A DNA stretch of 64,000 nucleotides, taken from Lepidurus packardi. Lineage: Eukaryota > Arthropoda > Branchiopoda > Notostraca > Triopsidae. The notes beneath the pieces are model-generated. The model was not told the DNA's origin. It saw only the letters and a program-made list of their open reading frames with translations, and made no database searches. Made by a program: the position numbers and the translations under genes. This document shows positions 876 to 18,920 of this stretch, piece by piece (position 1 is the first letter of the stretch; each line of letters starts with the position of its first letter). The stretch lies in NCBI GenBank assembly GCA_023053545.1, contig JAKZAN010000055.1, positions 62,001 through 126,000 of the forward strand, read 5' to 3'.

Positions 876-1024
876 CCCCGCCCGCCTCCGCAAAGTTCAA
901 CAATTAAAAAGTCCATTCGCTGATTTGTGAGAAAAAAACGATATATTTGAAAAACGGTGCAAAGTAGCGCATATACACCCGAAATTAGGTAGATTAGCGC
1001 TAGTTTGTAGCGCATATAAACAAG
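876..1024. other. intergenic stretch before the first cassette boundary
   Basis: No gene is visible. The motif TAGCGCATATA occurs twice (965-975 and 1008-1018), the second copy just before the inferred cassette boundary at 1024/1025. I could not find the two arms of a full attC-like hairpin here, so this may be an ancestral insertion point or a worn site rather than a complete recombination site. Confidence 0.35.
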
Positions 1025-1312
1025 TTATAACTCATTCGTGCCTAATATCACATCCAAGGCTAGGTCGAGTAAAGCTAATTCACATAATCTTTCAAATTCT
1101 CCTAAATATTTTGATTCTTCGATAATAGCTACTCTACATTCTTCTCTAAACATTGAATTATTTTCTCCAAAAACTTTGTCTCCTATTTTTTTGAATTCAT
1201 TAATCCATTTTGTTTTTTCTCCAATAAGTTCGAAATATTTTTTTTCGCCATATACCTTAATTACTTCAATCTTATATGCTTCTTTCAATTCTTCTAATAA
1301 TTTTTCATCCAT
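1025..1312 (-). CDS. hypothetical protein in cassette 1
   Basis: A 95-residue, highly charged, mostly helical protein (starts MDEKLLEELKEAYKIEVIK) with no signal peptide or membrane segment. I do not recognise the family. The minus frame is preferred over the plus-strand open frame at 1038-1331 because its composition is that of a soluble protein, while the plus frame is serine/phenylalanine rich as expected of an antisense shadow. The gene runs against the direction of the cassette array, which a minority of integron cassette genes do. Its TAA stop (1025-1027 on the complement) is formed by the first bases of the cassette. Confidence 0.65.
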   Translation of the reverse strand: MDEKLLEELKEAYKIEVIKVYGEKKYFELIGEKTKWINEFKKIGDKVFGENNSMFREECRVAIIEESKYLGEFERLCELALLDLALDVILGTNEL

Positions 1313-1324
1313 AATAAAAAACGA

Positions 1325-1454
1325 GTTATAACAGCAATTACACGCTATTGCTAGATTGTGATTAATTTAATTTTTGTTTTGTGTCTTTAAGTTCCGTGTT
1401 AAACTGAAAGATAGTTTTGTGTTTTCACGCAACAGACGTGTAGTTGCGACACGT
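1325..1454 (+). repeat. attC-like site 1, interrupted by IS copy 1
   Basis: The R''-like box GTTATAAC (1325-1332) matches the cassette start at 1024-1031. The 5' arm AGCAATTACACG pairs with the 3' arm CGTGTAGTTGCG (about 1438-1449), separated by an AT-rich loop. The 3' arm ends at ACGT (1451-1454), where the IS begins; the remaining half of the core (TTAGC) is on the far side of the IS at 3167-3171. Like the other sites, the 3' arm has about four extra bases next to the core. Confidence 0.65.
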
Positions 1455-3167
1455 CAGGCTGTGAATAAACCCCATTTTTCCTTCAAAAACAAAGTGTGAG
1501 ACACGCATAAACTGCTTCTAAGCAATGCTAAATTTTGAAGTAAGTTGGTTTTTCCAAAATGCGAAATGAGCTAAAAACAACTTTAAACAAGTCGTTTTTA
1601 TCAAAAACAAGACCCTTCTCTTGTAAGGCGAGTTCCAGGTCTTGAGTTTCAGCAGTAAATCGGGCACGCCGAGGATATTGATGCTGCGTGTGAGGTTGTA
1701 AACCAACATAATCAAGCTGTGTTCGCCGTTTACTTTCTCCAATCCTGTTAAATCCGTGTAATTGTAGCCCCATTTTCGCTTAATCGTGCCAAAAATGTGT
1801 TCGTTGATTTCCTGCCGCTTGCGGTATAGCTGGGGGTTGGCTTTGTAGCGCTCGAGGTTCTCTTCTACTGCCTCGGCATATTGGCTGCGATCCAGTTCCC
1901 TTCCGCCCTTTCTACTGGTGCATAAATCCTTCACAGGACAGGTTTTGCAGGCTGGCGTGCGGTACTTTTGGAACTGATAGCCACTTTCCTCGGTTCGGCC
2001 GGTTTTCTTGTGCCAACGCCCCGTCGTGCTCAGGGTTTGTCCTTGCGGACAGGTGTAGGTATTCGACTCTTTGTTGTAGGTAAATTTCGATACAAAATAG
2101 TCAGGTTGCGTACCGTTTTCGTTGCTCTTGCCTTGATCGGGAACCGCAACAATCGTAGTGATGTCGTGGTTTTTGCAGGTGTCCAGTTCGCGTCCGTTGT
2201 GGTAGCCTTTGTCAACCAAGGTCGTAAAAGTTTCTACTTCCAAGTTTTCCTTGGCTTCGATGGCAATGGCCGAAAGTGCGTTTCTATCGTTCCGATTGAT
2301 GGTATGCGTGGCCACAACCAGGTTGTGCCTGTCATCCACCGCAGCCTGAATATTGTAGGCTATCTCGACCACTTGCCCTTGAACCAACAGCGCTCTGGCA
2401 TCTGAATCGGTGGTGCTGATTTGAGGTTCGCCGCTGGCTTTTAACTGCGTTTCAAGCAGTTCATAGTTGATCTTGTTGTGCTTTAAACGCTCGAGTTTTT
2501 GTTGGATGTTTGTAACAGCCGTTGATTTTTCTTGGCTGTCGTTTTGGTCCAATGCCGCTAGATATTCCTGCGTTTTTGCTTCGATATAGGCTAAGTGTTT
2601 GTCGATTTTCTTTTGGTTGAAGTTGGACTTTTTCCCATTGTGCGCTCGGGATTTTGTGCCGTCAATCGCGATGGTTTCGCCACCAATTAGGTTTGCATCT
2701 TTCAGAAACGACACAAACAATTTGAAGAGCTGCCGCAGCGCTTTTGGGTTGTCCTTCCTAAAATCAGCTATTGAGTGATAGTTCGGTCGGCGTGCTTCCA
2801 CCAACCACTGCATTTCCAAATTGCGTTGGCACTCCTTCTCCAATCGTCTGGAACTTCTGATGCCATTAATATAACCATACAAATAGATTTTTAGAAACAA
2901 CTGCGTTTCAAAACTCGGCCGACCTTCAGTTTTCAGCACCTTTACCGCAAACCCGAGCTTTTCTAAATCTATACTATTAACAAATGCGTCAATAAAACGC
3001 ACTGGATTGTCAGCAGAAATGGTATCTTCCAGACTGCTCAAATTAAACTGATGGCGGGAAATTCCTTGGATATGTTGCATGTATAAATATAGTTAGTTCG
3101 GGTATTTCCTACAAACTTTTAGCTATATTTGTTTAAGGATTGTGGACGTTTTTTCACGGTCTGACGT
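1451..3167 (-). mobile_element. IS1182-type insertion sequence, copy 1 (1717 bp)
   Basis: Bounded by ACGTCAGGCTGTGAA on the left and the inverted TTCACGGTCTGACGT on the right. Since ACGT is also the centre of the AACGTT core of the target site, it may be a 4-bp target duplication, leaving 11-bp inverted repeats starting CAG. One transposase gene fills the element on the minus strand. A TATATTTG box at 3124-3131 points out of the right end into cassette 2. Copies 2 and 3 have the same length to within 1 bp. Confidence 0.85.
1518..3080 (-). CDS. IS1182 family transposase
   Basis: A 520-residue DDE transposase. The N-terminal part (residues 1-110) is the InsH-type helix-rich domain with the NPVRFIDAFV and FRKDNP motifs. 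Catalytic residues are likely D140 (in AIDGTKSRAHNGKKS), D290 (in LVDKGYHNGREL) and E427 (in EINEHIFGTIKRKWG). A cysteine cluster (CKTCPVKDLC, about 378-387) precedes the last catalytic residue, as in this family. The frame is complete. A likely promoter on the minus strand just upstream reads TTG, 20 bases, TATATTTA. The C-terminus is nearly identical to copy 3 and differs from copy 2. An antisense frame of 145 codons inside the gene is a shadow. Confidence 0.93.
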   Translation of the reverse strand: MQHIQGISRHQFNLSSLEDTISADNPVRFIDAFVNSIDLEKLGFAVKVLKTEGRPSFETQLFLKIYLYGYINGIRSSRRLEKECQRNLEMQWLVEARRPNYHSIADFRKDNPKALRQLFKLFVSFLKDANLIGGETIAIDGTKSRAHNGKKSNFNQKKIDKHLAYIEAKTQEYLAALDQNDSQEKSTAVTNIQQKLERLKHNKINYELLETQLKASGEPQISTTDSDARALLVQGQVVEIAYNIQAAVDDRHNLVVATHTINRNDRNALSAIAIEAKENLEVETFTTLVDKGYHNGRELDTCKNHDITTIVAVPDQGKSNENGTQPDYFVSKFTYNKESNTYTCPQGQTLSTTGRWHKKTGRTEESGYQFQKYRTPACKTCPVKDLCTSRKGGRELDRSQYAEAVEENLERYKANPQLYRKRQEINEHIFGTIKRKWGYNYTDLTGLEKVNGEHSLIMLVYNLTRSINILGVPDLLLKLKTWNSPYKRRVLFLIKTTCLKLFLAHFAFWKNQLTSKFSIA

Positions 3168-3293
3168 TAGCAGAAAATTTTGAAAAACGAAACGCTAAAC
3201 CTGATTAAAATCATAATACATTGACAGTTGTGACATCAGTAAATAAGCACAAATTAAAAATAATTAATTATTAACAATTTAAACTCAAGTAAA

Positions 3294-4762
3294 ATAAAGA
3301 AAATCATAATTTTATTAGGTCTAACGGTTATTTTTTCATCTTGTTCAAATGATGATATTGATAACAAAGTTGAGTTAAACGAGGTTAACAACAAAAAAGT
3401 ATTAAAAGAAATTTCATTACTAATTGGTGAGACACTTAAAAACCAAGAAGTAAGAAATGAAATTCTTGAAACAGTAAATGAGGTTGACTCTTATGGTAAC
3501 GCAGTTTCTTTTGCTCTTTTATTAGGTGAAAATTCTAAAACTTCTGATTATGAGAAGAGAAAAATGGAAACTGTTTTAAATAAAACAATTTCTGGTAAGT
3601 CAGAATCTTTATTTAAAGCACATTTGAATAATATTTTTTCTTCTAACAAGGAGAAATATGTTGAATTAAATAAAACTTTTGAAAATAATCCAAATATTTT
3701 GAAAAGAACAAATTTATCGGAATTGGAATCATATTTAATTGAGAATGAATTAGAATTGTATTTTCCTTACAAAGATAAATTTGATTGGGAACATCTGATT
3801 TCTTATACCGTTACATTTGAAGACGAAAATCCTAACGGTAATTACGAAGGTTTTAAGTATTTAGGTTTGACTTATGAAGAAGTAAGCAATATTATAGATG
3901 ACTACCTTTTTGAGAATCCAACAGTTGCAATAATTCCAATGGATAAAGACTATGTTGGTGAAGATTTAAGGATTTCTTATAATAATCAAACACATTATCT
4001 AAATCCAAATTTATCATTTGAACATATTTCAGATTTTTACGACAATCTATATGGAGGTGGTAATTTTGGTGGTGGATATGCTGGCGGCGGTAGTACAGGT
4101 GGTGGTACAACTGGAGGTGGTAATACTGGTACAACACCACAGAGAATTAGGTTAACACAAAATGTTAATCCCTATACTTTTTTTAATGAAAATCATATTC
4201 TTACAAATTACATACCAAAAGCTAGAATAACTACAACAAGTTGGAAAAGAACATTATCAAAAGCACATAGAACAAGAAATTGCTAGAGCTGGTTCAACAG
4301 TTGCAGTGAATCCAAACGGTACTTTTAGTGCGATGACTAATACATTTTATTTTGATTTTGACATTAGTGCTTCAGATTTAAGAAATAAAAGATGGAAAAA
4401 TGTAGGTATAATGTTTGACCCTAATTGGCACAAAACCAAAGGTAGTCAACAAATCATTGTATGGACAAAAAGAAGTAATGCTAGTAATTCATCTTTGCAG
4501 GTTAAGAATCAAATTAAAATAGACGCACAAGGTAATTACACACCTAATACTTCAATTTCAGCAACATTTAATGCAAGTAGTGAAACTAAAGCTATTTTTA
4601 GAGGTAACGTTGAACTTGATAGGGATCAAGTTTTAACAACTATTGTTAATGGTTCAGGAGTACGATAATGCAACACATAATCATAATGGTGCAAATTTAT
4701 CAGTAAGGAGAGTTGCTAATAATTTTGAATATATCTTTGATATGTTTTACACGAATTTATAA
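3294..4762 (+). pseudogene. lipoprotein with glycine-rich linker, frameshifted
   Basis: First gene of cassette 2. The frame open from about 3294 reads KKIIILLGLTVIFSSC, a lipoprotein signal with lipobox FSSC, then a charged helical domain. A glycine-rich linker (GGGNFGGGYAGGGSTGGG, near 4051-4110) separates it from a C-terminal domain. The natural start would be the AAG-preceding codon at 3294-3296, which is ATA, not ATG; the next ATG (3564) would lose the signal peptide. The frame breaks near 4255 and again near 4660, ending NFEYIFDMFYTNL with TAA at 4760-4762. Total length would be about 490 residues. The family is not recognised; it is probably an exported surface protein. Confidence 0.6.
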
Positions 4763-4771
4763 ATTATCTTT

Positions 4772-4805
4772 AGCAGACCACAATGTGTGGTCTGCTTTTA
4801 TATTT
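4772..4805 (+). terminator. intrinsic terminator after the cassette 2 lipoprotein
   Basis: Perfect 11-bp stem AGCAGACCACA / TGTGGTCTGCT (4772-4782 and 4786-4796) with a 3-nt loop, followed by a T-rich tract. It sits 10 bases after the lipoprotein stop and ends 7 bases before the next gene. Confidence 0.85.
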
Positions 4806-4811
4806 TAACTT

Positions 4812-5398
4812 ATGAAAAAAATTATCATATTAATTTTATTTATTTCAACTACTGCAATTGCCCAATTAAATGAAAATATCTCAATTGGCTCAAGTTTTGC
4901 GCATTTTGATGACACTAATGGTTTTGAAATAAATATGTCGTATTGCTCTCGAATCAATAGATATTTAGGTGTTGAATTCAAAATGAATTATGCAAAAACA
5001 AGTGATTTTCCAGCTACTTATAGATTTTCTGAACAAATTAATCAAAATTATTGGTTTTCTAAGAGTACAATTTTTAATGTAACACCTAATTTGCATCTTG
5101 TATTTATTGATGAAAGAAAACATCATTTTTCATTTTATGGAGGTATAGGTTTAATGTTTATTGATACCGCTGACAATACAAATTTTATTACAAACCCCCA
5201 ATGAATTTAATTTTGAATCTAGTTCAGAATCTTATTCTACCATATCAAAAACAATTGGTATAAAATACGCTTATTATATTAAAAAAATTGGTTTTGGTAT
5301 AGATGCAAAATTAATATCGCCCTTAAAAAAAAAATGATGACTATTTTGGTCAAGATAATTATAGAACAATTGGTTTATTTTTAACTAAAAGATTTTAA
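4812..5398 (+). pseudogene. outer-membrane beta-barrel protein, frameshifted
   Basis: The start MKKIIILILFISTTAIAQ is a signal peptide with the AQ cleavage end common in Bacteroidetes. What follows is alternating hydrophobic/polar strands with aromatic ends and FYGGIGLMF, as in small porin-like beta barrels. The frame breaks near 5200, continues with FNFESSSESYSTISKTIG and ISPLKKK, breaks again in the run of ten A at about 5325-5334, and ends with YRTIGLFLTKRF and TAA at 5396-5398, the terminal aromatic expected for a barrel. Joined length is about 195 residues. It lies in cassette 2, two bases before the next gene. Breaks in homopolymers suggest read errors. Confidence 0.6.
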
Positions 5399-5400
5399 CA

Positions 5401-5995
5401 ATGAAAAAAATAATTCTACTTTTATGTTTTATATTAGTTTTTGAAAATCTGACTGCACAAAATATTGACGAACCAAAATTCAGAACTTTTTTTGATTGTG
5501 GGTTATTTAACAGTAGCTTCAAATTCAGCATCAGATGGCGGTAATTATCTTTCTGCTGGTTTTGGATACAAAATTAATTCGGATTTTTGGCTTAATTTAA
5601 CATTTATAAAGATATCTGCATCTGGAGAATTTGAACAAAACCCTTTATTTATTAACAATGAGACAAACTATCATAGCACAATGATTATCCCAAACACTTT
5701 AGTAAAGAATGGAAATTATCAAATAAATTTTATTTTTCTGGTGCAATTGGAGGGGCATTAATTTTTGAAAAAGTTTTTAGTTCCATCAGTTATTACTAAT
5801 AATTCCAATAATATAGTTGGTGTTGAATTTACTAATCAAGGTGAATCTTTTAATATTGGTTTGTTTGGGGATTTAAATATTAAATATGAAATAATTAGAA
5901 ATTTAAGCTTATTTATAAGTGCAAAATCATTTTTACCTTTAAATCTCGAACCAGACAGTTTTTTATTAGGCGTAGGAATTGAAATTAAGCTATAA
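5401..5995 (+). pseudogene. second outer-membrane beta-barrel protein, frameshifted
   Basis: ATG at 5401 opens MKKIILLLCFILVFENLTAQ, a signal peptide. The protein continues across at least three frame changes (near 5490, 5705 and 5760-5800): VASNSASDGGNYLSAGFGY, then NKFYFSGAIGGALIFEKVF, then NIGLFGDLNIKYEIIRN and LLGVGIEIKL with TAA at 5993-5995. The glycine and aromatic pattern is that of an outer-membrane barrel of about 195 residues. It follows the previous barrel gene by two bases, so the two were likely cotranscribed. The R''-like box of attC site 2 starts seven bases after the stop, the usual position in a gene cassette. Confidence 0.6.
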
Positions 5996-6001
5996 ATCTT
6001 C

Positions 6002-6129
6002 TGCTAACAGCCATTTTGCGTAATTGCGGCGGCAGTGTATAAATTTAAAGTTTAGGCAAAAATCAAACATCAGTTATTGCTCAAAAGTTTAGCATTAAAA
6101 ATCCGCAACTACGCAAAGTGGCGAAACGT
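6002..6129 (+). repeat. attC-like site 2, interrupted by IS copy 2
   Basis: The R''-like box is TGCTAAC (6002-6008); with its upstream bases, TTCTGCTAAC is the exact reverse complement of the cassette 2 start GTTAGCAGAA (3166-3175). The 5' arm CATTTTGCGTAATTGCGG pairs with the 3' arm CCGCAACTACGCAAAGTGG (6102-6123) with only a few mismatches or wobbles. The arm ends GCGAA then ACGT, where IS copy 2 begins. Confidence 0.7.
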
Positions 6130-7842
6130 CAGGCTGTGAATAAACCCCATTTTCCCTTCAAAAACAAAGTTTGAGACACGCATAAACTGCTTCTAAGCAA
6201 TGCTAAATTTTGAAGTGCGTTGGTTTTTCAGAAATGCAAAATGAGCTAAAAACAGGTTTAAATAGGTCGTTTTTATCAAAAACAAGACCCTTCTCTTGTA
6301 AGGTGAGTTCCAGGTCTTGAGTTTCAGCAGTAAATCGGGCACGCCGAGGATATTGATGCTGCGTGTGAGGTTGTAAACCAACATAATCAAGCTGTGTTCG
6401 CCGTTTACTTTCTCCAATCCTATTAAATCCGTGTAATTGTAGCCCCATTTTCGCTTAATCGTGCCAAAAATGTGTTCGTTGATTTCTTGGCGCTTGCGGT
6501 ATAGCTGGGGGTTGGCTCGGTAGCGCTCGAGGTTCTCTTCTACTGCCTCGGCATATTGGCTGCGATCCAGTTCCCTCCCGCCCTTTCTACTGGTGCATAA
6601 ATCCTTCACAGGACAGGTTTTGCAGGCTGGCGTGCGGTACTTTTGGAATTGATAGCCGCTTTCCTCGGTTCGGCCGGTTTTCTTGTGCCAACGCCCCGTC
6701 GTGCTCAGGGTTTGTCCTTGCGGACAGGTGTAGGTATTCGACTCTTTATTATAGGTAAATTTCGATACAAAATAGTCAGGTTGCGTACCGTTTTCGTTGC
6801 TCTTGCCTTGATCGGGAACGGCAACAATCGTAGTGATGTCGTGGTTTTTGCAGGTGTCCAGTTCGCGTCCGTTGTGGTAGCCTTTGTCAACCAAGGTCGT
6901 AAAAGTTTCTACTTCCAAGTTTTCCTTGGCTTCGATGGCAATGGCCGAAAGCGCGTTTCTATCGTTCCGATTGATCGTATGCGTGGCAACAACCAAGTTA
7001 TATTTGTCATCCACCGCAGCCTGAATATTGTAGGCTATCTCGACCACTTGCCCTTGAACCAACAGCGCCCTGGCATCTGAATCGGTAGTGCTAATTTGAG
7101 GTTCGCCGCTGGCTTTTAGTTGCGTTTCCAGCAGTTCGTAGTTGATCTTGTTGTGCTTTAAACGCTCGATTTTTTGTTGGATGTTTGTAACAACCGTTGA
7201 TTTTTCTTGGCTATCGTTTTGGTCCAACGCTGCGAGATATTCCTGCGTTTTTGCTTCGATATAGGCCAAGTGTTTGTCGATTTTCTTCTGGTTGAAGTTG
7301 GACTTTTTTCCGTTATGCGCTCGAGATTTTGTACCGTCAATCGCGATAGTTTCACCACCAATCAGGTTTGCATCTTTCAGAAACGACACAAACAATTTGA
7401 AGAGCTGCCGCAGCGCTTTTGGGTTGTCCTTCCTAAAATCAGCTATTGAGTGATAATTCGGTCGGCGTGCTTCCACCAACCACTGCATTTCCAAATTGCG
7501 TTGGCACTCCTTCTCCCATCGTCTGGAACTTCTGATGCCATTAATATAACCATACAAATAGATCTTTAGAAACAACTGTGTTTCAAAACTCGGCCGACCT
7601 TCGGTTTTCAGCACCTTTACCGCAAACCCGAGCTTTTCTAAATCTATACTATTAACAAACGCGTCAATAAAACGCACTGGATTATCAGAAGAAATGGTAT
7701 CTTCCAGACTGCTCAAATTAAACTGATGGCGGGAAATTCCTTGGATATGTTGCATGTATAAATATAGTTAGTTCGGGTATTTCCTACAAACTTTTAGCTA
7801 TATTTGTTTAAGGATTGTGGACGTTTTTTCACGGTCTGACGT
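6126..7842 (-). mobile_element. IS1182-type insertion sequence, copy 2 (1717 bp)
   Basis: Ends are as in copy 1: ACGTCAGGCTGTGAA at left, TTCACGGTCTGACGT at right. The flanking DNA joins to GCGAA-ACGT-TACCTGC, i.e. an attC-like core. It carries one complete transposase gene on the minus strand. A TATATTTG box at 7799-7806 faces outward into cassette 3. It is the most divergent of the three full copies in its left end. Confidence 0.85.
6193..7755 (-). CDS. IS1182 family transposase
   Basis: A 520-residue DDE transposase, same architecture as the copy at 1518-3080, with D140, D290 and E427 conserved. Notable substitutions against copy 1 are W80 for L, I for L near 196, KY for RH at 251-252, R for K in RYRANPQ, and a changed C-terminus (TTYLNLFLAHFAFLKNQRT). 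The frame is complete with no breaks, in contrast to the neighbouring cassette genes. Confidence 0.93.
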   Translation of the reverse strand: MQHIQGISRHQFNLSSLEDTISSDNPVRFIDAFVNSIDLEKLGFAVKVLKTEGRPSFETQLFLKIYLYGYINGIRSSRRWEKECQRNLEMQWLVEARRPNYHSIADFRKDNPKALRQLFKLFVSFLKDANLIGGETIAIDGTKSRAHNGKKSNFNQKKIDKHLAYIEAKTQEYLAALDQNDSQEKSTVVTNIQQKIERLKHNKINYELLETQLKASGEPQISTTDSDARALLVQGQVVEIAYNIQAAVDDKYNLVVATHTINRNDRNALSAIAIEAKENLEVETFTTLVDKGYHNGRELDTCKNHDITTIVAVPDQGKSNENGTQPDYFVSKFTYNKESNTYTCPQGQTLSTTGRWHKKTGRTEESGYQFQKYRTPACKTCPVKDLCTSRKGGRELDRSQYAEAVEENLERYRANPQLYRKRQEINEHIFGTIKRKWGYNYTDLIGLEKVNGEHSLIMLVYNLTRSINILGVPDLLLKLKTWNSPYKRRVLFLIKTTYLNLFLAHFAFLKNQRTSKFSIA

Positions 7843-7883
7843 TACCTGCTATGCTACGAGAAACCTTGCTAACATTGAAATAA

Positions 7884-8624
7884 ATGCAAAATAAGAACAA
7901 ATTACTGTTAGCGTTAAGAGCTGAAAAATCAAATGTTGAAATCCATAAACATTCGGCTTTTCAAATTGTATTTACTGATGACAATCCATTTTTAACAACG
8001 ATTGAAAACAAAACACATAATGAAATCTTCGGTTTTGCCATAAAACCACAAGTAGCACATTCTTGTGAATGTAGCCAAAGCAACTTAATTATTCTGAATA
8101 TAGAACCTTACTCGTTTTTAGGTAAGTACATTTCAACAAAATTAAGACAATCAAATTTCACAATTTTTACTAATCAAAAGGAGTTTCAAAATTTCTTTGA
8201 AAGTGCAAAAACTGAATTTTCACTTACAAGTTTGATAAGTAACAACTATAACCAAAACATTCAACCCACAGACGAAAGGATACTAAAAGTCATTTCTTTG
8301 ATAAATGAACAATTTAAAGTTGAAAACATTTCAACTCAAGATATTGCAAAACAAGTTTTTCTATCACCTTCTCATTTGGCAACTTTATTCAAACAACAAA
8401 TGGGAAGTAGTATTAGCAAATATCTTTTATGGACAAGGTTACGAAATGCTATATTTCTAATTCTTACCGAAAAAGATAAAACTTTGACCAAAATCTCATT
8501 GGAAAGTGGTTTTTATGACTCTTCACAGATGATAAAATATATGTACCAAATGTTTGGTATTTCGCCATCAAAACTAAAACAGAAAAGTGATTTGATACAA
8601 TTTTTAGACTTTGAGACACCGTAA
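7884..8624 (+). CDS. AraC family transcriptional regulator
   Basis: A 246-residue protein. Residues about 140-235 carry two helix-turn-helix units: STQDIAKQVFLSPSHLATLFK and LTKISLESGFYDSSQMIKYM, ending FGISPSKLK, the AraC/XylS signature (usually ..S.FSR.FK..G.sP..yR). The N-terminal 130 residues look like a short cupin-like sensor domain. It is the first gene of cassette 3 and lies 31 bases before an esterase gene on the same strand, so it may control that gene. The IS copy upstream carries an outward -7-like box that could feed transcription. The effector is unknown. Confidence 0.85.
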   Translation: MQNKNKLLLALRAEKSNVEIHKHSAFQIVFTDDNPFLTTIENKTHNEIFGFAIKPQVAHSCECSQSNLIILNIEPYSFLGKYISTKLRQSNFTIFTNQKEFQNFFESAKTEFSLTSLISNNYNQNIQPTDERILKVISLINEQFKVENISTQDIAKQVFLSPSHLATLFKQQMGSSISKYLLWTRLRNAIFLILTEKDKTLTKISLESGFYDSSQMIKYMYQMFGISPSKLKQKSDLIQFLDFETP

Positions 8625-8655
8625 TTTTGCGGTTCAATCTTAAAATAATATAAAA

Positions 8656-9489
8656 ATGAGTATTAACAATCAAATAATTGAAGAAAACAGAGCCTTGTAC
8701 GATAGTGTAGGAAGCATTTATCCAGCACACGAAGCAGTAAATATTTCAAAAGAAATCATAAACGACATCACCTGTCATTGGTTTAAACCAACCAATAGCA
8801 AAACTAATGAATTGGTTATTTATGTACACGGAGGAGGATATGCCATTGGTTCATTTCAATCTCATAAAGCAATGGTTTCTCATTTTGCCAACGGTTTAGA
8901 AAGAACCATTCTTTTTGTTGAATATTCTTTAGCACCCGAAAAACCATATCCAAACGGTTTAAACGATGTAGTGAATATTTATCAATGGGCAACAGTAAAG
9001 TTTGCAAATCATCAATTGTATTTAATGGGCGATAGTGCAGGTGGTGGTTTGGTTATTGCTTGTGTAAATGAAATAAATCTTCAAATACTAAAATCGCCCA
9101 AAGCCATTGCTTTAATTTCGCCTTGGTACAATTTGGAAACCAACAATCCATCTTCCGAAAGTCGCCAACATTTAGACCAAATCTTAAACAAAGAAATGGT
9201 TCAGAATTTTGCTTATGCTTATGCAGGTAGCGATTTATCAAAAGCTGACCCAAGCCAAATTCAATTTAATAGTTTTCCTCCTGTTTTTGTGGGCGTGGGA
9301 ACTAACGAAATTTTGTTTGACGATGCGTTTAATTTTTTCGATATGGTTTATAAGATTCAAGAAAATACCCAGTTGAAAATTTACAGCGGACAAGGACACG
9401 TATTAACGCAATTAAATATTTCAAGCACTGCAGCTCAAGATTTAATTATTAATATTAACAACTTTTTTAACACAACAGAAAATGTATAG
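8656..9489 (+). CDS. alpha/beta hydrolase, HSL-type esterase
   Basis: A 277-residue hydrolase without signal peptide. The oxyanion-hole motif VHGGGYAIGS lies near residues 54-63, the nucleophile motif MGDSAGGG near 124-131, and the aspartate/histidine pair is plausible in FDDAFNFF (near 222) and SGQGHVLTQL (near 247). The HGGG plus GDSAGG pair marks the hormone-sensitive lipase family (short-chain esterases, acetyl-hydrolases). It overlaps the following YCII-like gene by 8 bases, so the two are cotranslated. It sits in cassette 3 after the AraC regulator. Substrate cannot be told from sequence. Confidence 0.88.
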   Translation: MSINNQIIEENRALYDSVGSIYPAHEAVNISKEIINDITCHWFKPTNSKTNELVIYVHGGGYAIGSFQSHKAMVSHFANGLERTILFVEYSLAPEKPYPNGLNDVVNIYQWATVKFANHQLYLMGDSAGGGLVIACVNEINLQILKSPKAIALISPWYNLETNNPSSESRQHLDQILNKEMVQNFAYAYAGSDLSKADPSQIQFNSFPPVFVGVGTNEILFDDAFNFFDMVYKIQENTQLKIYSGQGHVLTQLNISSTAAQDLIININNFFNTTENV

Positions 9490-9754
9490 AATATTAGTTT
9501 TAATCTCCTTATCGGACACCGGAATTCAGACAATAATATCAAATCCTGAATTACCCAAAAAGGAAATGGAATTCGTCAACAAATGGAAAGAAGAAAATAT
9601 TTTGGAAAGTTTTTATATTTCAGTTTCAAAAAAAGATGCAGTCTTAATATTTCAAAATATTGACGAAACCAAGACGAAGGAACTTATTGAGATTTTGCCT
9701 TACTTTCCGTATATGGAAAAAATTGAATATCACAATTTAAACAAACAGTTTTAA
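9482..9754 (+). CDS. YCII-related / muconolactone isomerase-like small protein
   Basis: A 90-residue protein (MYRILVLISLSDTGIQTII at the start) with the ferredoxin-like pattern of YCII and muconolactone delta-isomerase-like proteins: an N-terminal beta strand, NPELPKKEMEFVNKWKEENILESFYISVSKKDAVLIF in the middle and LPYFPYME near the end. Such proteins are dimeric, and their functions are mostly unknown. It starts inside the last codons of the esterase gene (8-base overlap). It is the last gene of cassette 3; attC-like site 3 begins about 70 bases downstream. Confidence 0.6.
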   Translation: MYRILVLISLSDTGIQTIISNPELPKKEMEFVNKWKEENILESFYISVSKKDAVLIFQNIDETKTKELIEILPYFPYMEKIEYHNLNKQF

Positions 9755-9824
9755 TCATAGTTGGCTTGGCAGATAACCTTTAGAACGACATTAAACTTTT
9801 GTCAGCGAACCGACAGAAAGCACA

Positions 9825-9956
9825 GCAGGTAACAGCAGTTTGGCAAAATGGCGGGTTTAGTGCTAAATTGAACATTTGGTTTTAAAAAGAAGTTTAGTTC
9901 TAAATTGAAAGTAAGTGCTTCAAAAACCGCCACTTCGCCAAGCTGCGAAACGACGT
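9825..9956 (+). repeat. attC-like site 3, interrupted by IS copy 3
   Basis: The R''-like box GCAGGTAAC (9825-9833) is the exact reverse complement of the cassette 3 start GTTACCTGC (7841-7849). The 5' arm AGTTTGGCAAAATGGCGG pairs with the 3' arm CCGCCACTTCGCCAAGCT. The loop contains two near-copies of TTTAGTgCTAAATTGAA. The 3' arm ends GCGAAACG then ACGT at the IS junction. Confidence 0.72.
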
Positions 9957-11670
9957 CAGGCTGTGAATAAACCCCATTTTTCCTTCAAAAACAAAGTGTG
10001 AGACACGCATAAACTGCTTCTAAGCAATGCTAAATTTTGAAGTAAGTTGGTTTTTCCAAAATGCGAAATGAGCTAAAAACAACTTTAAACAAGTCGTTTT
10101 TATCAAAAACAAGACCCTTCTCTTGTAAGGCGAGTTCCAGGTCTTGAGTTTCAGCAGTAAATCGGGCACGCCGAGGATATTGATGCTGCGTGTGAGGTTG
10201 TAAACCAACATAATCAAGCTGTGTTCGCCGTTTACTTTCTCCAATCCTGTTAAATCCGTGTAATTGTAGCCCCATTTTCGCTTAATCGTGCCAAAAATGT
10301 GTTCGTTGATTTCCTGCCGCTTGCGGTATAGCTGGGGGTTGGCTTTGTAGCGCTCGAGGTTCTCTTCTACTGCCTCGGCATATTGGCTGCGATCCAGTTC
10401 CCTTCCGCCCTTTCTACTGGTGCATAAATCCTTCACAGGACAGGTTTTGCAGGCTGGCGTGCGGTACTTTTGGAACTGATAGCCACTTTCCTCGGTTCGG
10501 CCGGTTTTCTTGTGCCAACGCCCCGTCGTGCTCAGGGTTTGTCCTTGCGGACAGGTGTAGGTATTCGACTGTTTGTCGTAGGTAAATTTCGATACAAAAT
10601 ACTCAGGTTGCGTACCGTTTTCGTTGCTCTTGCCTTGATCGGGAACCGCAACAATCGTAGTGATGTCGTGGTTTTTGCAGGTGTCCAGTTCGCGTCCGTT
10701 GTGGTAGCCTTTGTCAACCAAGGCCGTAAAAGTTTCAATTTCCAAGTTTTCCTTGGCTTCGATGGCAATGGCCGAAAGTGCGTTTCTATCGTTCCGATTG
10801 ATCGTATGCGTGGCAACAACCAAGTTATATTTGTCATCCACCGCAGCCTGAATATTGTAGGCTATCTCGACCACTTGCCCTTGAACCAACAGCGCTCTGG
10901 CATCTGAATCGGTGGTGCTGATTTGAGGTTCGCCGCTGGCTTTTAACTGCGTTTCAAGCAGTTCATAGTTGATCTTGTTGTGCTTTAAACGCTCGAGTTT
11001 TTGTTGGATGTTTGTAACAGCCGTTGATTTTTCTTGGCTGTCGTTTTGGTCCAATGCCGCTAGATATTCCTGCGTTTTTGCTTCGATATAGGCTAAGTGT
11101 TTGTCGATTTTCTTTTGGTTGAAGTTGGACTTTTTTCCGTTATGCGCTCGGGATTTTGTGCCGTCAATCGCGATGGTTTCGCCACCAATTAGGTTTGCAT
11201 CTTTCAGAAACGACACAAACAATTTGAAGAGCTGCCGCAGCGCTTTTGGGTTGTCCTTCCTAAAATCAGCTATTGAGTGATAGTTCGGTCGGCGTGCTTC
11301 CACCAACCACTGCATTTCCAAATTGCGTTGGCACTCCTTCTCCAATCGTCTGGAACTTCTGATGCCATTTATATACCCATACAAATAGATCTTTAGAAAC
11401 AACTGCGTTTCAAAACTTGGCCGACCTTCGGTTTTCAGCACATTTACCTCAAAACCTAGCTTTTCTAAATCTATACTATTAACAAATGCGTCAATAAAAC
11501 GCACTGGATTGTCAGCAGAAATGGTATCTTCCAGACTGCTCAAATTAAACTGATTGCGGGAAATTCCTTGGATATGTTGCATGTATAAATATAATTAGCT
11601 CGGGTATTTCCTACAAGTTTTTTGCTATATTTGTTTGAGGACGGTGGAAGGTTTTTTCACAGTCTGACGT
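9953..11670 (-). mobile_element. IS1182-type insertion sequence, copy 3 (1718 bp)
   Basis: Left end ACGTCAGGCTGTGAA, right end TTCACAGTCTGACGT. Its left end matches copy 1 and its right end matches the deleted relative at 12254-12676 (GGTGGAAGG instead of TGTGGACG), so it is a mosaic. A TATATTTG box at 11626-11633 faces outward into cassette 4. The outer flanks join to an AACGACGTTAGC core. Confidence 0.85.
10020..11582 (-). CDS. IS1182 family transposase
   Basis: A complete 520-residue transposase with D140, D290 and E427. The N-terminus carries changes shared with the deleted element (N10 in SRNQFNL; GFEVNVLK at 43-50), the centre shares KY at 251-252 with copy 2, and the C-terminus is identical to copy 1. 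No frame breaks. Confidence 0.93.
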   Translation of the reverse strand: MQHIQGISRNQFNLSSLEDTISADNPVRFIDAFVNSIDLEKLGFEVNVLKTEGRPSFETQLFLKIYLYGYINGIRSSRRLEKECQRNLEMQWLVEARRPNYHSIADFRKDNPKALRQLFKLFVSFLKDANLIGGETIAIDGTKSRAHNGKKSNFNQKKIDKHLAYIEAKTQEYLAALDQNDSQEKSTAVTNIQQKLERLKHNKINYELLETQLKASGEPQISTTDSDARALLVQGQVVEIAYNIQAAVDDKYNLVVATHTINRNDRNALSAIAIEAKENLEIETFTALVDKGYHNGRELDTCKNHDITTIVAVPDQGKSNENGTQPEYFVSKFTYDKQSNTYTCPQGQTLSTTGRWHKKTGRTEESGYQFQKYRTPACKTCPVKDLCTSRKGGRELDRSQYAEAVEENLERYKANPQLYRKRQEINEHIFGTIKRKWGYNYTDLTGLEKVNGEHSLIMLVYNLTRSINILGVPDLLLKLKTWNSPYKRRVLFLIKTTCLKLFLAHFAFWKNQLTSKFSIA

Positions 11671-11705
11671 TAGCACCAATGGTAGGACGACATAACAACA
11701 GACCA

Positions 11706-12099
11706 ATGACAAACATAAAAGCAATTTACTTTTTGACACTTTTGACTTTCACATTAACTGCGTGTGAACAGACAAAAAGTGACAGAACTATACTTGGAAA
11801 TCATACGCTGAACAAGAACTTAAATCGGCACTTACCGACAAATCCCAACACAACGTAATTGATAACAAGACTTCAATTATTAAAGACAGTTTGACTGCAA
11901 TAAACGTAGCAGAACCAATTCTTTTCAGCATTCACGGCAAAGACAACATTAATAAACAGCGACCATATGAAATTTACTTCATTGACAGTTATTGGGTAAT
12001 TGGTGGAACACTTCCAAAAGAATATTTAGGCGGGACACTTTTTTAATAATCATTGACTCAAGAGACTGTAAAATAATTAGAATAACTCACGGAAAATGA
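11706..12099 (+). pseudogene. NTF2-fold immunity-like lipoprotein, frameshifted
   Basis: Cassette 4 cargo. The start MTNIKAIYFLTLLTFTLTAC is a lipoprotein signal with lipobox LTAC. The frame breaks near 11800, continues KSALTDKSQHNVIDNKTS and YEIYFIDSYWVIGGTLP, then LGGT, breaks again in the T-run near 12040, and ends IIIDSRDCKIIRITHGK with TGA at 12097-12099. The YWVIGGTLP...GGTF.I.ID...G..I...HGK pattern is that of the NTF2-fold immunity protein family. Such proteins usually neutralise a polymorphic toxin, but no toxin gene is nearby. Joined length is about 130 residues. Both indels lie in or near short homopolymers. Confidence 0.6.
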
Positions 12100-12127
12100 C
12101 AACGACAGACCGACACGAACGAACCAC

Positions 12128-12257
12128 TGGTGCTAACAGGCGTTTGGCAAAAAAGCGGGTTCAGTGGTTAATTGAAGCTTTGTGCTTCGTTTCAAGTTCA
12201 GTGCTTGCAGACAGTTCAGTGCTTCGAAGTCCGCTTCTTCGCCAAGCGCCAAAACGT
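12128..12257 (+). repeat. attC-like site 4, interrupted by the deleted IS
   Basis: TGGTGCTAAC (12128-12137) is the reverse complement of the cassette 4 start GTTAGCACCA (11669-11678). The 5' arm GGCGTTTGGCAAAAAAGCGG pairs with the 3' arm CCGCTTCTTCGCCAAGCGCC with only wobble-type differences. The 3' arm ends CAAA then ACGT at the junction. It starts 28 bases after the stop of the immunity-like gene. Confidence 0.72.
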
Positions 12258-12676
12258 CAGGCTGTGAATAAACCCCATTTTCCCTTCAAAAACAAAGTCT
12301 GAGACACGCATAAACTGCTTCTAAGCAATGCTAAATTTTGAAGTAAGGGTTGCTCCAGAATGCAAAAATGCGCCGTTTATACAAGCATACAAAGATCTAC
12401 AAAAACAGCTATGTTTCAAAACTCGGCCGACCTTCGGTTTTCAGCACATCTACCTCAAACGTGAGCTTTTTTAAATCTATACTATTAACAAATGCGTCAA
12501 TAAAACGCACTGGATTATCAGCAGAAATGGTATCTTCCAGACTGCTCAAATTAAACTGATTGCGGGAAATTCCTTGGATGTATTGCATTTATAAACATAG
12601 TTATTTCGGGTATTTCCTACAGGTTTTTTGCTATATTTGTTTGAGGACGGTGGAAGGTTTTTTCACAGTCTGACGT
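12254..12676. mobile_element. internally deleted relative of the IS1182-type element (423 bp)
   Basis: Both ends match the full copies (ACGTCAGGCTGTGAA and TTCACAGTCTGACGT). About 90 bases of the left end are kept, then the sequence jumps to the region encoding transposase residues 1 to about 65 at the right end; roughly 1.3 kb is missing. The remaining coding DNA has diverged (for example EVDVLK for EVNVLK), so the deletion is not recent. It is inserted at the same core position as the full copies, so it may be mobilised in trans as a non-autonomous element, or be a copy that decayed in place. Confidence 0.8.
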
Positions 12677-12769
12677 TGTGTGCTAGTTTAGCAGAAAATT
12701 TACGGTGAAAAGAAAACTGAAAAAATAAATAATGTGATTTGGAATCTTATTCCGAAAAAATAAATCAAA

Positions 12770-13153
12770 ATGCAGACAAATTATAAATTGACTTCAACTT
12801 TAGGCGAAATATTTGTCTATGTTATTTATATAATCGGAATTGGATTTACAGGCTTTCTAATCTACAGTGTAATAATAAAAGATACAAGCGGAATTTTGAC
12901 TTGTTTACTGCTAATTCTGTTTTTCTATTTTGCTTTTATCACTAAAATTCTGAAATTTAAAAATGTCACTTTTGACAATAAATCGATTTATTTAGAAGAC
13001 GAAAATATTTCACTAAAAGAAGTAAAAAGCATTAAACTTGGAGAAATAATATTCCGCAAAAATGGAAAAGAAGTAAAAATAAATTACAACTATTTTTATG
13101 CCAAAAATTATAAAAAGCTTACAGAATATTACGAAACTGAAAATAAATCATAA
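12770..13153 (+). CDS. hypothetical two-helix membrane protein (cassette 5)
   Basis: A 127-residue protein. Two membrane segments (about residues 13-33 and 43-58) are followed by a basic soluble domain with VTFDNKSIYLEDENISLKEVK and IIFRKNGKEVKINYNYF, an arrangement like small PH-fold membrane proteins (STM3941-like or bPH), but I cannot name a family with confidence. It lies in cassette 5, starting 94 bases after the cassette boundary. The truncated attC-like site 5 begins 10 bases after its stop. Confidence 0.7.
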   Translation: MQTNYKLTSTLGEIFVYVIYIIGIGFTGFLIYSVIIKDTSGILTCLLLILFFYFAFITKILKFKNVTFDNKSIYLEDENISLKEVKSIKLGEIIFRKNGKEVKINYNYFYAKNYKKLTEYYETENKS

Positions 13154-13163
13154 ATAAAAAACC

Positions 13164-13257
13164 AGCACACAACATCCACTACAACGGATTTGGGCATTTG
13201 GCTTAATGGAAAAATGGTCTTGTATTTGGTAAGATTTGTGCATAGTGGAAAAAACCC
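13164..13257 (+). repeat. attC-like site 5, 3' half missing
   Basis: AGCACACAAC (13164-13173) is the reverse complement of the cassette 5 start GTTGTGTGCT (12675-12684). The following CTACAACGGATTTGGGC and GGCTTAATGGAAA are shared with site 6 at 18061-18190 (there on the minus strand). The expected 3' arm and AACGTT core are absent; instead the sequence runs into hairpin repeat C at 13258. Confidence 0.65.
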
Positions 13258-13302
13258 CGCTCCGCAAAGTCTCCTGACTTCGCGGCTTATCGCGCCGGCA
13301 AC
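13258..13302. repeat. hairpin repeat family C, copy 2
   Basis: CCGCAAAGTC-TCCT-GACTTCGCGG gives a near-perfect 10-bp stem, followed by CTTATCGCGCCGGCAAC. The same repeat is at 831-875. Here its right end forms the last codons and TAA stop of the cyclophilin gene on the minus strand, so the stem also lies right after that stop and may act in 3' end formation. Confidence 0.8.
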
Positions 13303-13937
13303 ACGTATGCCTTTCGAATCAAATCCAATTTGGGATGGGTTTTGTAGAATAAAGTCCTATTTTGATACAAGTTGGGATCGCTCATCGGGTATTCTGCATA
13401 ATCGGAATACAGCTGATCGACTACCGCCATACCTTTCACAACCCGACCAAACGCCGGGAATCCGATAACTTCTTCCATGTTGATCGTATCCAATGAACGA
13501 TTGTCCTTCAAGTTTATAAAAACTTCTAAATCGCGGCTTTCTTGGCCCGAACGGGCAAAAGAAACCGTTCCGCGCAAATTCGGCAATTTTACCGGCTCAT
13601 CTGGAATTTTCTTCTGCCGCCATTTGTTCATGGCAATGGTATCTGTATTGCCAAATTGCGCCACAAAACCGGCAACAACACGATAGAAGATTGCATTGTC
13701 ATAATAATTGTGCTGACACAATTGATAAAACCGATCAGCAGCAGCGGGCGAATTTGAACGATCTACTGCAATATCAAAATCGCCTTTTGTGGTTTCGAAC
13801 CGCACCACGAAGCTTGGTGGCGCTTGCTCATCTAACCATTTTTGGTCGAACTCTGGATTTTTACAAGATGAAATTAGCAGCAAAACAGCCGCAAAAGCGA
13901 TAATTTGACGACAAGTTCCTAAAAGTGTAATTTTCAT
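13287..13937 (-). CDS. cyclophilin-type peptidyl-prolyl isomerase lipoprotein
   Basis: Taking the ATG at 13937 gives a 216-residue protein starting MKITLLGTCRQIIAFAAVLL with lipobox LISSC, so a periplasmic or outer-membrane lipoprotein; the longer frame from 13982 would bury this signal. The cyclophilin core is visible: FETTKGDFDIAV, then NAIFYRVVAGFVAQFGN, LRGTVSFAR, and FGRVVKGMAVVDQL. These enzymes speed proline cis-trans isomerisation during folding in the envelope. The last five codons (VLPAR) come from hairpin repeat C, which suggests the native C-terminus was altered by the repeat. It is single-gene and divergent from etfB. Confidence 0.88.
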   Translation of the reverse strand: MKITLLGTCRQIIAFAAVLLLISSCKNPEFDQKWLDEQAPPSFVVRFETTKGDFDIAVDRSNSPAAADRFYQLCQHNYYDNAIFYRVVAGFVAQFGNTDTIAMNKWRQKKIPDEPVKLPNLRGTVSFARSGQESRDLEVFINLKDNRSLDTINMEEVIGFPAFGRVVKGMAVVDQLYSDYAEYPMSDPNLYQNRTLFYKTHPKLDLIRKAYVLPAR

Positions 13938-18034: not shown

Positions 18035-18060
18035 CAAACATTATTCAAACCCTCGATTGT

Positions 18061-18190
18061 CAACGTTCTCGCCCTACAGCGGGTTTGGGATTAAATTAAG
18101 CCCTATTTTCGGGTTTGCCAAATATTAGCAAATACAAAACCATCTTTCCATTAAGCCAATTGCCCAAATCCGTTGTAGCGTGTGTTGGCA
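18061..18190 (-). repeat. attC-like site 6, intact and IS-free
   Basis: Read on the minus strand: R''-like TGCCAAC, 5' arm CTACAACGGATTTGGG, a long loop, 3' arm CCCAAACCCGCTGTAG, then GGGCGAG and the core AACGTTGAC. It is the only complete, uninterrupted site in the window and shows what the others looked like before the IS arrived. It starts 10 bases after the antitoxin stop, the normal place for attC. Confidence 0.75.
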
Positions 18191-18199
18191 GATGTAGCT

Positions 18200-18493
18200 T
18201 TATATTTCGATTTGGATTTTTACTTTTCCTCCAAGTCCTTTTTCAACTATATCATACAAAGTTTTAAGAGTTAAATTACTTCCGTTATTTTCAATTCTAG
18301 AGATATATTCTCTTTTTTTTGCAACTAAATCGCCCAATTCAGTTTGTGTCAAATGCTTTTCTTCACGAGCTTTTTTCAAAAGCAAACCGATTTTAAAACC
18401 TTGAAATTCTCTTTCAAGTTCATCACGTCTTACGGTTCCTTTTTCGCCGTAAACTTCATTTTTAATTTCTTTCCAACTTTTAGTTTCCATCAT
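18200..18493 (-). CDS. XRE-type antitoxin (HigA-like)
   Basis: A 97-residue protein. The helix-turn-helix is in residues about 36-75: LKKAREEKHLTQTELGDLVAKK then REYISRIENNGSNLTLKTL. The family binds and neutralises a partner RelE/HigB toxin and represses the operon. Its first ATG (18493) overlaps the last base of the toxin stop (TAATG), so it is translationally coupled as second gene, the HigBA order. A second ATG follows immediately, so the start could be one codon later. Confidence 0.88.
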   Translation of the reverse strand: MMETKSWKEIKNEVYGEKGTVRRDELEREFQGFKIGLLLKKAREEKHLTQTELGDLVAKKREYISRIENNGSNLTLKTLYDIVEKGLGGKVKIQIEI

Positions 18494-18834
18494 TATTTAG
18501 ATTTTTCGTTGTAATATTCTGTCATTAAACGCAAAGCTTTTTCAATTTCTTTTTTTGGAGTTTTCTGCGTTTTCTTTTGAAAGCCATTTAATAGAATTAC
18601 AAGTTTTCCATTATCAAAAAAACAAAACACTCTCCAAATATTAGAACCAAGTTGGATTCGTGCTTCATATAAGCCGTTTGTTCCTTCCATTGATTTAAAA
18701 TAGTTTGAAGGAACTCTTTCTAAAGTTTCGATAGCTTCAATTATTTTGAATATTTTATCTTGAACTTTTTTTGGTTGTTCCAAGAGAAAATTTTCAAAGT
18801 GATTTTCATATGCTATAACTTCCCGTACTTTCAT
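18493..18834 (-). CDS. RelE/HigB-like (Gp49 family) toxin
   Basis: A 113-residue protein with the compact RelE fold pattern: FENFLLEQPKKVQDKIFKII near the start, NGLYEARIQLGSNIWRVFCFF in the middle, and VILLNGFQKKTQKTPKKEIEKA, the Gp49-like signature in which the basic residues after the LLNGFQKK strand are functional. Members cut ribosome-bound mRNA. The gene comes first in the pair, followed by the XRE antitoxin. A perfect inverted repeat lies 9 bases upstream of its start. Toxin-antitoxin pairs are common cassette cargo in chromosomal integrons. Confidence 0.87.
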   Translation of the reverse strand: MKVREVIAYENHFENFLLEQPKKVQDKIFKIIEAIETLERVPSNYFKSMEGTNGLYEARIQLGSNIWRVFCFFDNGKLVILLNGFQKKTQKTPKKEIEKALRLMTEYYNEKSK

Positions 18835-18843
18835 TTTTCAAAG

Positions 18844-18859
18844 GTAACTTAAAAGTTAC
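18844..18859. promoter_or_regulatory. palindromic operator of the toxin-antitoxin operon
   Basis: GTAACTT-AA-AAGTTAC is a perfect 7-bp inverted repeat with a 2-bp spacer, just upstream of the toxin start. The XRE antitoxin is the likely ligand (autoregulation). Confidence 0.6.
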
Positions 18860-18920
18860 TTTATTTACAAATTTTTCGTTGTTTATTATCGGTGCGGGGC
18901 TATATCTGCCAACAATAGCC

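Follow-up and report, generated by a model that had tools for sequence, protein, structure and literature searches.

The stretch of DNA considered here (the window) comprises 64,000 nucleotides (positions 62,001 to 126,000 of contig JAKZAN010000055.1, assembly GCA_023053545.1) deposited for the notostracan Lepidurus packardi; the assembly is eukaryote-sized, at 108.6 Mb in 344 contigs, with flavobacterial contigs within it, and the array that concerns us stands on contig C44. Positions 1024-13257 of the window hold five gene units with four insertion sequences (IS) of the IS1182 family in between, three measuring 1.7 kb and a fourth reduced by deletion to 417 bp. The units very probably represent a cassette array of integron type from which the integrase has been lost and in which the attI site is kept, with a copy bearing an intact integrase on another contig (C55). 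The initial annotation, made from the letters alone, had read the units as an integrase-less integron array or a related cassette system of a flavobacterium, and this is supported by a model of the cassette-end sites (attC), by the attI-like region and by the self-matching of the cassettes. Taken with its relatives, the array would belong to a second integron lineage in Bacteroidota, in which a sister of the integrase IntI without its I2 domain recombines folded, mismatch-bearing attC, perhaps in the state that preceded I2, and which is a source platform for resistance cassettes such as blaVEB and perhaps tet(X); towards this wider proposal we lean only slightly.

Each cassette would bring along the two halves of its site's outer arm, and since both halves travel with that cassette the match between start and end is confined to one cassette. 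The window cassettes starting at 1024, 3166, 7841, 11669 and 12675 open with GTT and seven further bases, which as a reverse complement match the R'' box of the same cassette at 10/10 positions in 5/5 cassettes, and the claim of five units each matching only itself is therefore borne out, with a longer run than had been noted. At base 11 an A stands opposite a C in all five, and bases 12-15 are matched again, 4/4 in four units and 2/4 in cassette 1. Some details of the initial annotation need amending: the IS copies split the four internal sites, the pairing being visible only on reading to the right of each IS, and of the five hairpins the model recovers four, the fifth (about 13165-13257) having no R' end and being unmatched at E 0.1. 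Similarly, the cassettes do extend over 1025..13257, but the array itself begins further left, with the attI-like region at 931-1023 and the end of an integrase gene at 907-930.

The same self-matching is found in other arrays; the complementarity, whose loss would have spoken against the initial reading, is kept in other copies. All five bases after GTT match in 93 of 111 consecutive cassettes. Shuffling 2000 times yielded 3.2 such cassettes on average and never more than 10, which excludes chance as the source of the matching, and a hairpin matches its own far end in 0/129. Of 108 pairs, 91 fit, the selection being made on bases 4-8; in these complementarity stops sharply after 15 bp, and base 11 is A in 91/91, with C opposite it in 72, G in 16, A in 2 and T in 1.

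A scan for hairpins picked up matches outside arrays and, with the threshold unchanged, 5 in shuffled sequence (C55 1, C44 4, C53 0, C165 0), and because of this background a covariance model (R1), as the initial annotation had proposed, was used instead, built from 33 attC sites, one from the own genome and 32 from relatives. Trained on other loci than these, R1 recovers four of the five window sites (E 5e-11 to 2e-20), together with an unexpected site at 18056-18192 on the opposite strand, whilst Rfam at its gathering threshold gave no match to an attC family. On 20 stretches from other genomes it found 129 sites, on 18 stretches and on one strand per stretch. Across these sites 91.3% of stem cells are paired as against 55.8% after shuffling, cells with double changes number 695 as against 198, and sliding the pairing partners destroys the signal; the alignment was fitted to R1 and so leans towards the structure of the model. 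The lack of an attC-like fold had been named as grounds for abandoning the integron reading, and both fold and covariation are there. A24 and C109 are invariant, unpaired and opposite each other in 33/33 rows of alignment A1, the fifth L pair is T.G in 73/127 sites, and A.C mismatches are conserved in the arms; these might stand in for the extrahelical bases of canonical sites.

The window thus holds a cluster of attC without an integrase, with four R1 sites on one strand and seven integrase codons left, and its cassettes each end in an R''/R' attC with a foldable, covarying stem, the last of them truncated. In this it resembles the CALIN described in passages of PMC9024848 and PMC9668308, likewise attC without integrase, and differs from it in having retained attI together with the last part of the integrase gene.

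The initial annotation saw no integrase, which holds for the window apart from the last seven codons of the gene; an intact copy is present elsewhere in the assembly. The search it had recommended for an intI-like tyrosine recombinase, made across the own assembly with the profile of the integron-integrase family, found an intact open frame at C55:67254-68291; the protein (345 amino acids, aa) is not a canonical IntI, and scores 191.6 bits against TIGR02249, under the cut-off of 265. The gene reads towards the cassettes, and is followed by a region of ~100 bases with two GTAGCGCATATA repeats, by G/TT (the slash marking the crossover) and by cassettes that include at least one attC without IS. 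Window positions 931-1023 match this region, and the 24 bases upstream encode KSPFADL and a stop where C55 has KSPFDDL and a stop; because the C55-like region is preceded by those seven codons, the window array can be read as an integron of which only the integrase end is left. A second copy of the attI end (GCGCATATAAACAAGTT) lies at C55:60136-60152 (minus strand), behind an IS fragment inside the C55 arrays, and the first cassette of the C55 integron (L010 4545-7091, minus strand) encodes an 849-aa ATPase with a match to the candidate defence family PDC-S06 at 1299 bits.

The attI arrangement recurs among relatives. In the 17 loci having both an integrase and a detected attC, the best of the GTTs lying no more than 320 nucleotides (nt) from the integrase gene agrees with the R'' of the first detected attC at 6 or 7 of 7 bases in 17/17, at a distance of 59-158 nt in 16 loci and of 279 nt, behind a short extra unit, in L083; each of the 17 therefore has an attI with a G/TT crossover beside the gene. 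The 345-aa tyrosine recombinase would cut double-stranded attI between G and TT (ATAAACAAG/TT), and would make the corresponding cut in the attC of a circular cassette, folded from one strand, such that cassettes would enter next to attI and could leave again.

The adjacency of recombinase gene end, attI-like region and first cassette in all 17 loci also bears on a further explanation, namely that this is a canonical IntI integron which merely occurs in Flavobacteriaceae, the nearby recombinase being an unrelated XerC/D-like enzyme. Canonical IntI at E<=1e-40 was found in 0/299 genomes of the family that includes F. urocaniciphilum, the control genomes in that search being likewise silent, yet the same search of a phylum sample gave 100/345 genomes, 93 of them over the cut-off, and it can be taken to work because it detected IntI there. 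A tree places the recombinase with IntI rather than with Xer, and together these observations make the canonical explanation very unlikely. The 93 phylum genomes with IntI over the cut-off are more than published passages suggest, and some of the IntI loci of that sample (L131-L138) have an apparent attI at the 3' end of the gene.

The additional domain I2 specific to IntI is given as ~36 aa in a passage of PMC9229058, and the C55-type family is without an IntI insert of about 41 residues: between flanking anchors there are 58-59 residues in 24/25 family members (one has 55), 100 in 8/8 IntI and 62 in XerD, as measured in 25 family rows only out of the 194 recombinase-bearing genomes described below. 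Residues 184-239 of 2a3v face 14 profile positions. In a second tree, built without L103, XerC and some rows, the family and IntI are separated from XerA/XerD with support of 99/96, and a C-terminal SPxD is common to all 25 family rows and 8 IntI rows. With a warning about long branches, the recombinase groups closer to IntI than to XerA/XerD and is probably a sister group of IntI that does not have the I2 insert. Residues 1-60 of the C55 integrase, strands and helices before the core-binding domain, are barely covered by the fold comparison, and they differ or are missing in distant family members.

The lineage is a widespread kind of integron. Relatives of the C55 integrase with 76-86% identity number 120 among the matches listed in a protein database search (8000 scored, all at E<=0.001 and surely including other recombinases), and 37 loci emerged when 84,980 species genomes were scanned, distributed over Flavobacterium, other Bacteroidota, Ignavibacteria and a Tenebribacter. 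R1 was run on 26 of these 37 loci, of which 18 (L069 set aside) have >=2 kb on the 3' side of the integrase, and 13 of the 18 contain matches; all 45 matches at E<=1e-5 in integrase loci, 15 of them outside the training set, lie 3' of the integrase and on its strand. Whole genomes with a relative have attC at E<=0.001 in 20 of 21 cases, with up to 46 sites. Among the 299 genomes of the F. urocaniciphilum family, where counts are lower bounds as in all the large samples, attC at E<=1e-5 occur in 240 and the recombinase profile at E<=1e-60 in 194; 181 genomes have both, 59 attC only, 13 the recombinase only and 46 neither (odds ratio 10.9, p 5e-14). The C55 protein alone as query gave E<=1e-70 in 31/299. 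Among the matches listed (150 attC and 150 recombinase) 33 attC lie <=40 kb from a recombinase on the same contig, and 30 of these are downstream on its strand. Two circular plasmids of Chryseobacterium, L083 and L084, encode a full-length integrase with 65% identity; L083 has attC downstream of it, plus IS110 and a group II intron, and in L084 R1 found no attC.

Of 147 cassettes compared across 17 genomes or records, none was common to two genomes (70% identity over 60% of the shorter). A fixed orthologous gene order, which the initial annotation had held would overturn its reading, was thus nowhere seen, and the reading as a fixed operon was rejected.

The insertion sequences have their own relationship with attC. 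They belong to the IS1182 family by their transposase, which scores over the NF033551 cut-off, and every window copy stands between a CG and a CG followed by TT and A or G, at the crossover of all four internal attC. In stretches from the own genome, 11/11 exact left ends fall on the crossover within an R1 site (E 0.0007 for the two on C165), and 8/8 right ends are followed by CGTTA or CGTTG. In L120, from another species, the left end of a related IS is at an attC and CGTCAA instead of CGTT comes after its right end, and in L045 the right end of a related IS borders a cassette start, the left end not being found. The attC crossover is the target used by IS1182-family elements. The IS1111 group includes insertion sequences that target attC and the present elements likewise pick it, here with an IS1182-family transposase and insertion at the G/TT crossover with a CG repeat.

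From this preference, and the occupation of every internal window site, one could argue for hairpins that act as terminators or as dispersed IS targets, and for units built by repeated IS1182-family insertion rather than by cassette capture. Such a history is the least probable of the alternatives considered, as the IS-like GTCA in place of GTT is seen at only 2 of the 129 sites in arrays of other genomes, both in L120, cassette starts match their own ends whereas hairpins do not match their own far ends, and arrays without IS also show the start-to-end matching. Cassette capture remains the preferred explanation, and the question then is whether the system is a dead relic, whose sites persist and which no longer moves genes in its own strain. 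The window array looks the part, with its integrase lost, its internal attC split and its last attC cut, and the compared genomes have no cassette in common. Against this, C55 has an open integrase frame, an attI-like region and >=1 attC without IS, the 120 relatives listed are at 76-86% identity, and the catalytic residues R202, K227, H292, R295, H318 and Y327 are invariant in the 25 rows of alignment A3; we consider a relic hardly more probable than units built by IS insertion.

A number of points weigh against an I2-less integron lineage. R1 was blank in 5/18 integrase loci with >=2 kb of 3' sequence, gave no site on the integrase-bearing stretches L126 and L129 and no match in a search of the whole genome G020; its seeds were hand-picked, nearly all near integrases, and matches near seeds are partly circular. 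In the family sample there are the 59/299 genomes with attC and no recombinase at E<=1e-60 and the 13/299 with the reverse, and 8 of the 194 recombinase genomes reach only 1e-61 to 1e-71 and could hold other recombinases. Among the matches listed, 3 of the 33 nearby attC are upstream on the other strand, which is the classical, divergent layout. The family's own node has support of 86/71 in the second tree, where Xer branches are long, and in the first tree the family is not one clade, as the distant L063 and L064 and the divergent L103 stand beside IntI in an open fork. The length of the R'/R'' match is in itself not special: passages of PMC2727003 give a pairing of 9-11 bases for canonical sites, with extrahelical bases present, and three canonical-type cassettes match over 9 (L144), 12 (aadB) and 13 (G360) bases, aadB and G360 having no mismatch at base 11; the comparison extends to three cassettes because a canonical attC scan of IntI loci yielded few. 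No cassette was seen to be common to two genomes, so that movement among relatives was not caught. Finally, the case for integron recombination is one of sequence comparison, from which the architecture, self-matching, covariation, attI-like region, co-orientation with the integrase, co-occurrence and one insertion outside arrays are read, and from these we infer catalysis, the choice of reacting strand and excision.

The insertion outside arrays is the unexpected window site, which belongs to a lone cassette between dfrA and ubiE. Its two proteins match TIGR02683 and TIGR03070, both under cut-off. In 7/7 relatives the aligned ends of dfrA and ubiE are 66-239 bp apart with no R1 site in between, and, to judge from this comparison, precisely one cassette has been inserted between the two genes, corresponding to what a passage of PMC9229058 calls SALIN. 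On the other side of dfrA attC are present in 3/7 relatives (L157 2047-2183 and 3035-3170, minus strand; L158 1266-1400; L161 1302-1435), and cassettes may favour the neighbourhood of this gene.

Features of the window are collected in Table 1. In cassettes 2 and 4 the reading frames (3300-5995 and 11700-12100) look interrupted, through decay or sequencing error. A dispersed repeat (CTCCGCAAAGTCTCC...) flanks the array on both sides, at 837-880 and 13258-13303, with relatives on C53 and C55, and the window also contains five Flavo-1 RNAs above the gathering score (14856, 20379, 34442, 52640 and 58984).

Table 1. Features of the cassette array and of the lone cassette in the window (E values are those of model R1).
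Feature	Positions	Strand	Remarks
End of integrase gene, final seven codons plus stop (K S P F A D L stop)	907..930	+	Remainder of gene absent; aligns with end of intact C55 gene (KSPFDDL stop)
attI-like region, GTAGCGCATATA twice, second copy continuing into AACAA before G/TT	931..1023	+	Near-identical to C55 region between integrase and first cassette
Cassette 1; open reading frame 1025-1312 on minus strand	1024..1332	+	
attC of cassette 1, IS at crossover	1324..1461	+	E 4.7e-11
IS1182-family element, transposase 1518-3080	1454..3164	-	NF033551, 350.3 bits, cut-off 270
Cassette 2; outer-membrane barrel-like protein among others, some interruption of frames	3166..6008	+	
attC of cassette 2, IS-interrupted	6000..6136	+	E 4.5e-18
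IS1182-family element, transposase 6193-7755	6129..7839	-	
Cassette 3; AraC regulator 7884-8624, alpha/beta hydrolase 8656-9489, 90-aa protein 9482-9754	7841..9833	+	
attC of cassette 3, IS-interrupted	9825..9960	+	E 2.3e-20
IS1182-family element, transposase 10020-11582	9956..11667	-	
Cassette 4	11669..12137	+	R'/R'' match
attC of cassette 4, split by IS remnant	12129..12264	+	E 2.1e-19
Deleted IS1182-family copy (417 bp), both ends retained	12257..12673	-	
Cassette 5; 127-aa protein 12770-13153	12675..13173	+	
attC of cassette 5, truncated, R' missing, then dispersed repeat	13165..13257	+	From sequence; no R1 match at E 0.1
attC of lone cassette	18056..18192	-	E 1.6e-10
Lone cassette; RelE/ParE-like toxin 18493-18834, helix-turn-helix antitoxin 18200-18493	18060-18913	-	10-base R'/R'' match, base-11 mismatch

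The lineage also has possible links to resistance genes. On plasmids, blaVEB-3 and tet(X3) are immediately preceded by fragments of the recombinase family. The blaVEB cassette, in the two class 1 integron contexts compared, has a terminal site that R1 matches (E 6.7e-6 in L155 and 3.8e-6 in L154), and in L155 (891-1969) the start of the cassette matches its R'' over 10 bases with a base-11 mismatch. The region upstream of the blaVEB G/TT in L155 is presumably attI1, intI1 being annotated beside it, and in L086 (5142-6763) blaVEB is joined upstream of G/TT to the attI-like region of the I2-less family; from G/TT onward the sequence, over the part compared, is the same in both. The evidence points to a source of the blaVEB cassette in Bacteroidota. 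The recombinase neighbouring tet(X3) is 52.9% identical to the C55 integrase over residues 125-345, and in L085 (5004-7180) its remnant is directly upstream of tet(X3), with what looks like a left attC half after the gene; L085 gave neither a start that would match the R'' of this half nor an R1 match, and no complete cassette is seen around tet(X3). Passages of two papers on tet(X) note a neighbouring 'xerD' or TpnF (PMC7473080, PMC8635130), likewise a recombinase directly upstream of the resistance gene and named XerD or TpnF there; in the part of PMC7473080 concerned no integron is reported near tet(X) and it is asked whether 'XerD' mobilises the gene, to which the present family suggests an answer.

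The lineage shares with the canonical integron a tyrosine recombinase beside attI, head-to-tail cassettes, folded attC with R''/R' of the form AAC...GTT and a G/TT crossover, and also the occurrence of lone cassettes elsewhere, going by the passage on SALIN (PMC9229058), whereas its integrase is I2-less and usually transcribed towards the cassettes and its attC arms carry the conserved A.C mismatches. The reverse-oriented IntI of Spirochaetota, in the passage of PMC9668308 that treats them, likewise read towards their cassettes; they are called IntIs there, unlike the present I2-less family. In the titles and abstract openings listed by searches of an open-access library, preprints aside, we found no description of an I2-less integron lineage. 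Since the relevant passage on IntegronFinder 2.0 (PMC9024848) names Salinibacter ruber M1 as its complete Bacteroidetes integron, besides those of Chlorobi and Ignavibacteriae, these bacteria may harbour a reservoir of mobile genes that has escaped notice.

Escudero et al. (PMC4792948), in the part bearing on this, describe the origin of the pair formed by I2 and the extrahelical bases as a chicken-egg paradox. A state older than the acquisition of I2 by IntI may survive in the I2-less lineage. It is the I2 domain that defines integron integrases; it is said to recognise the extrahelical bases of attC, and a living sister of IntI without it, accompanied by attC-like cassettes, makes the question of that origin testable.

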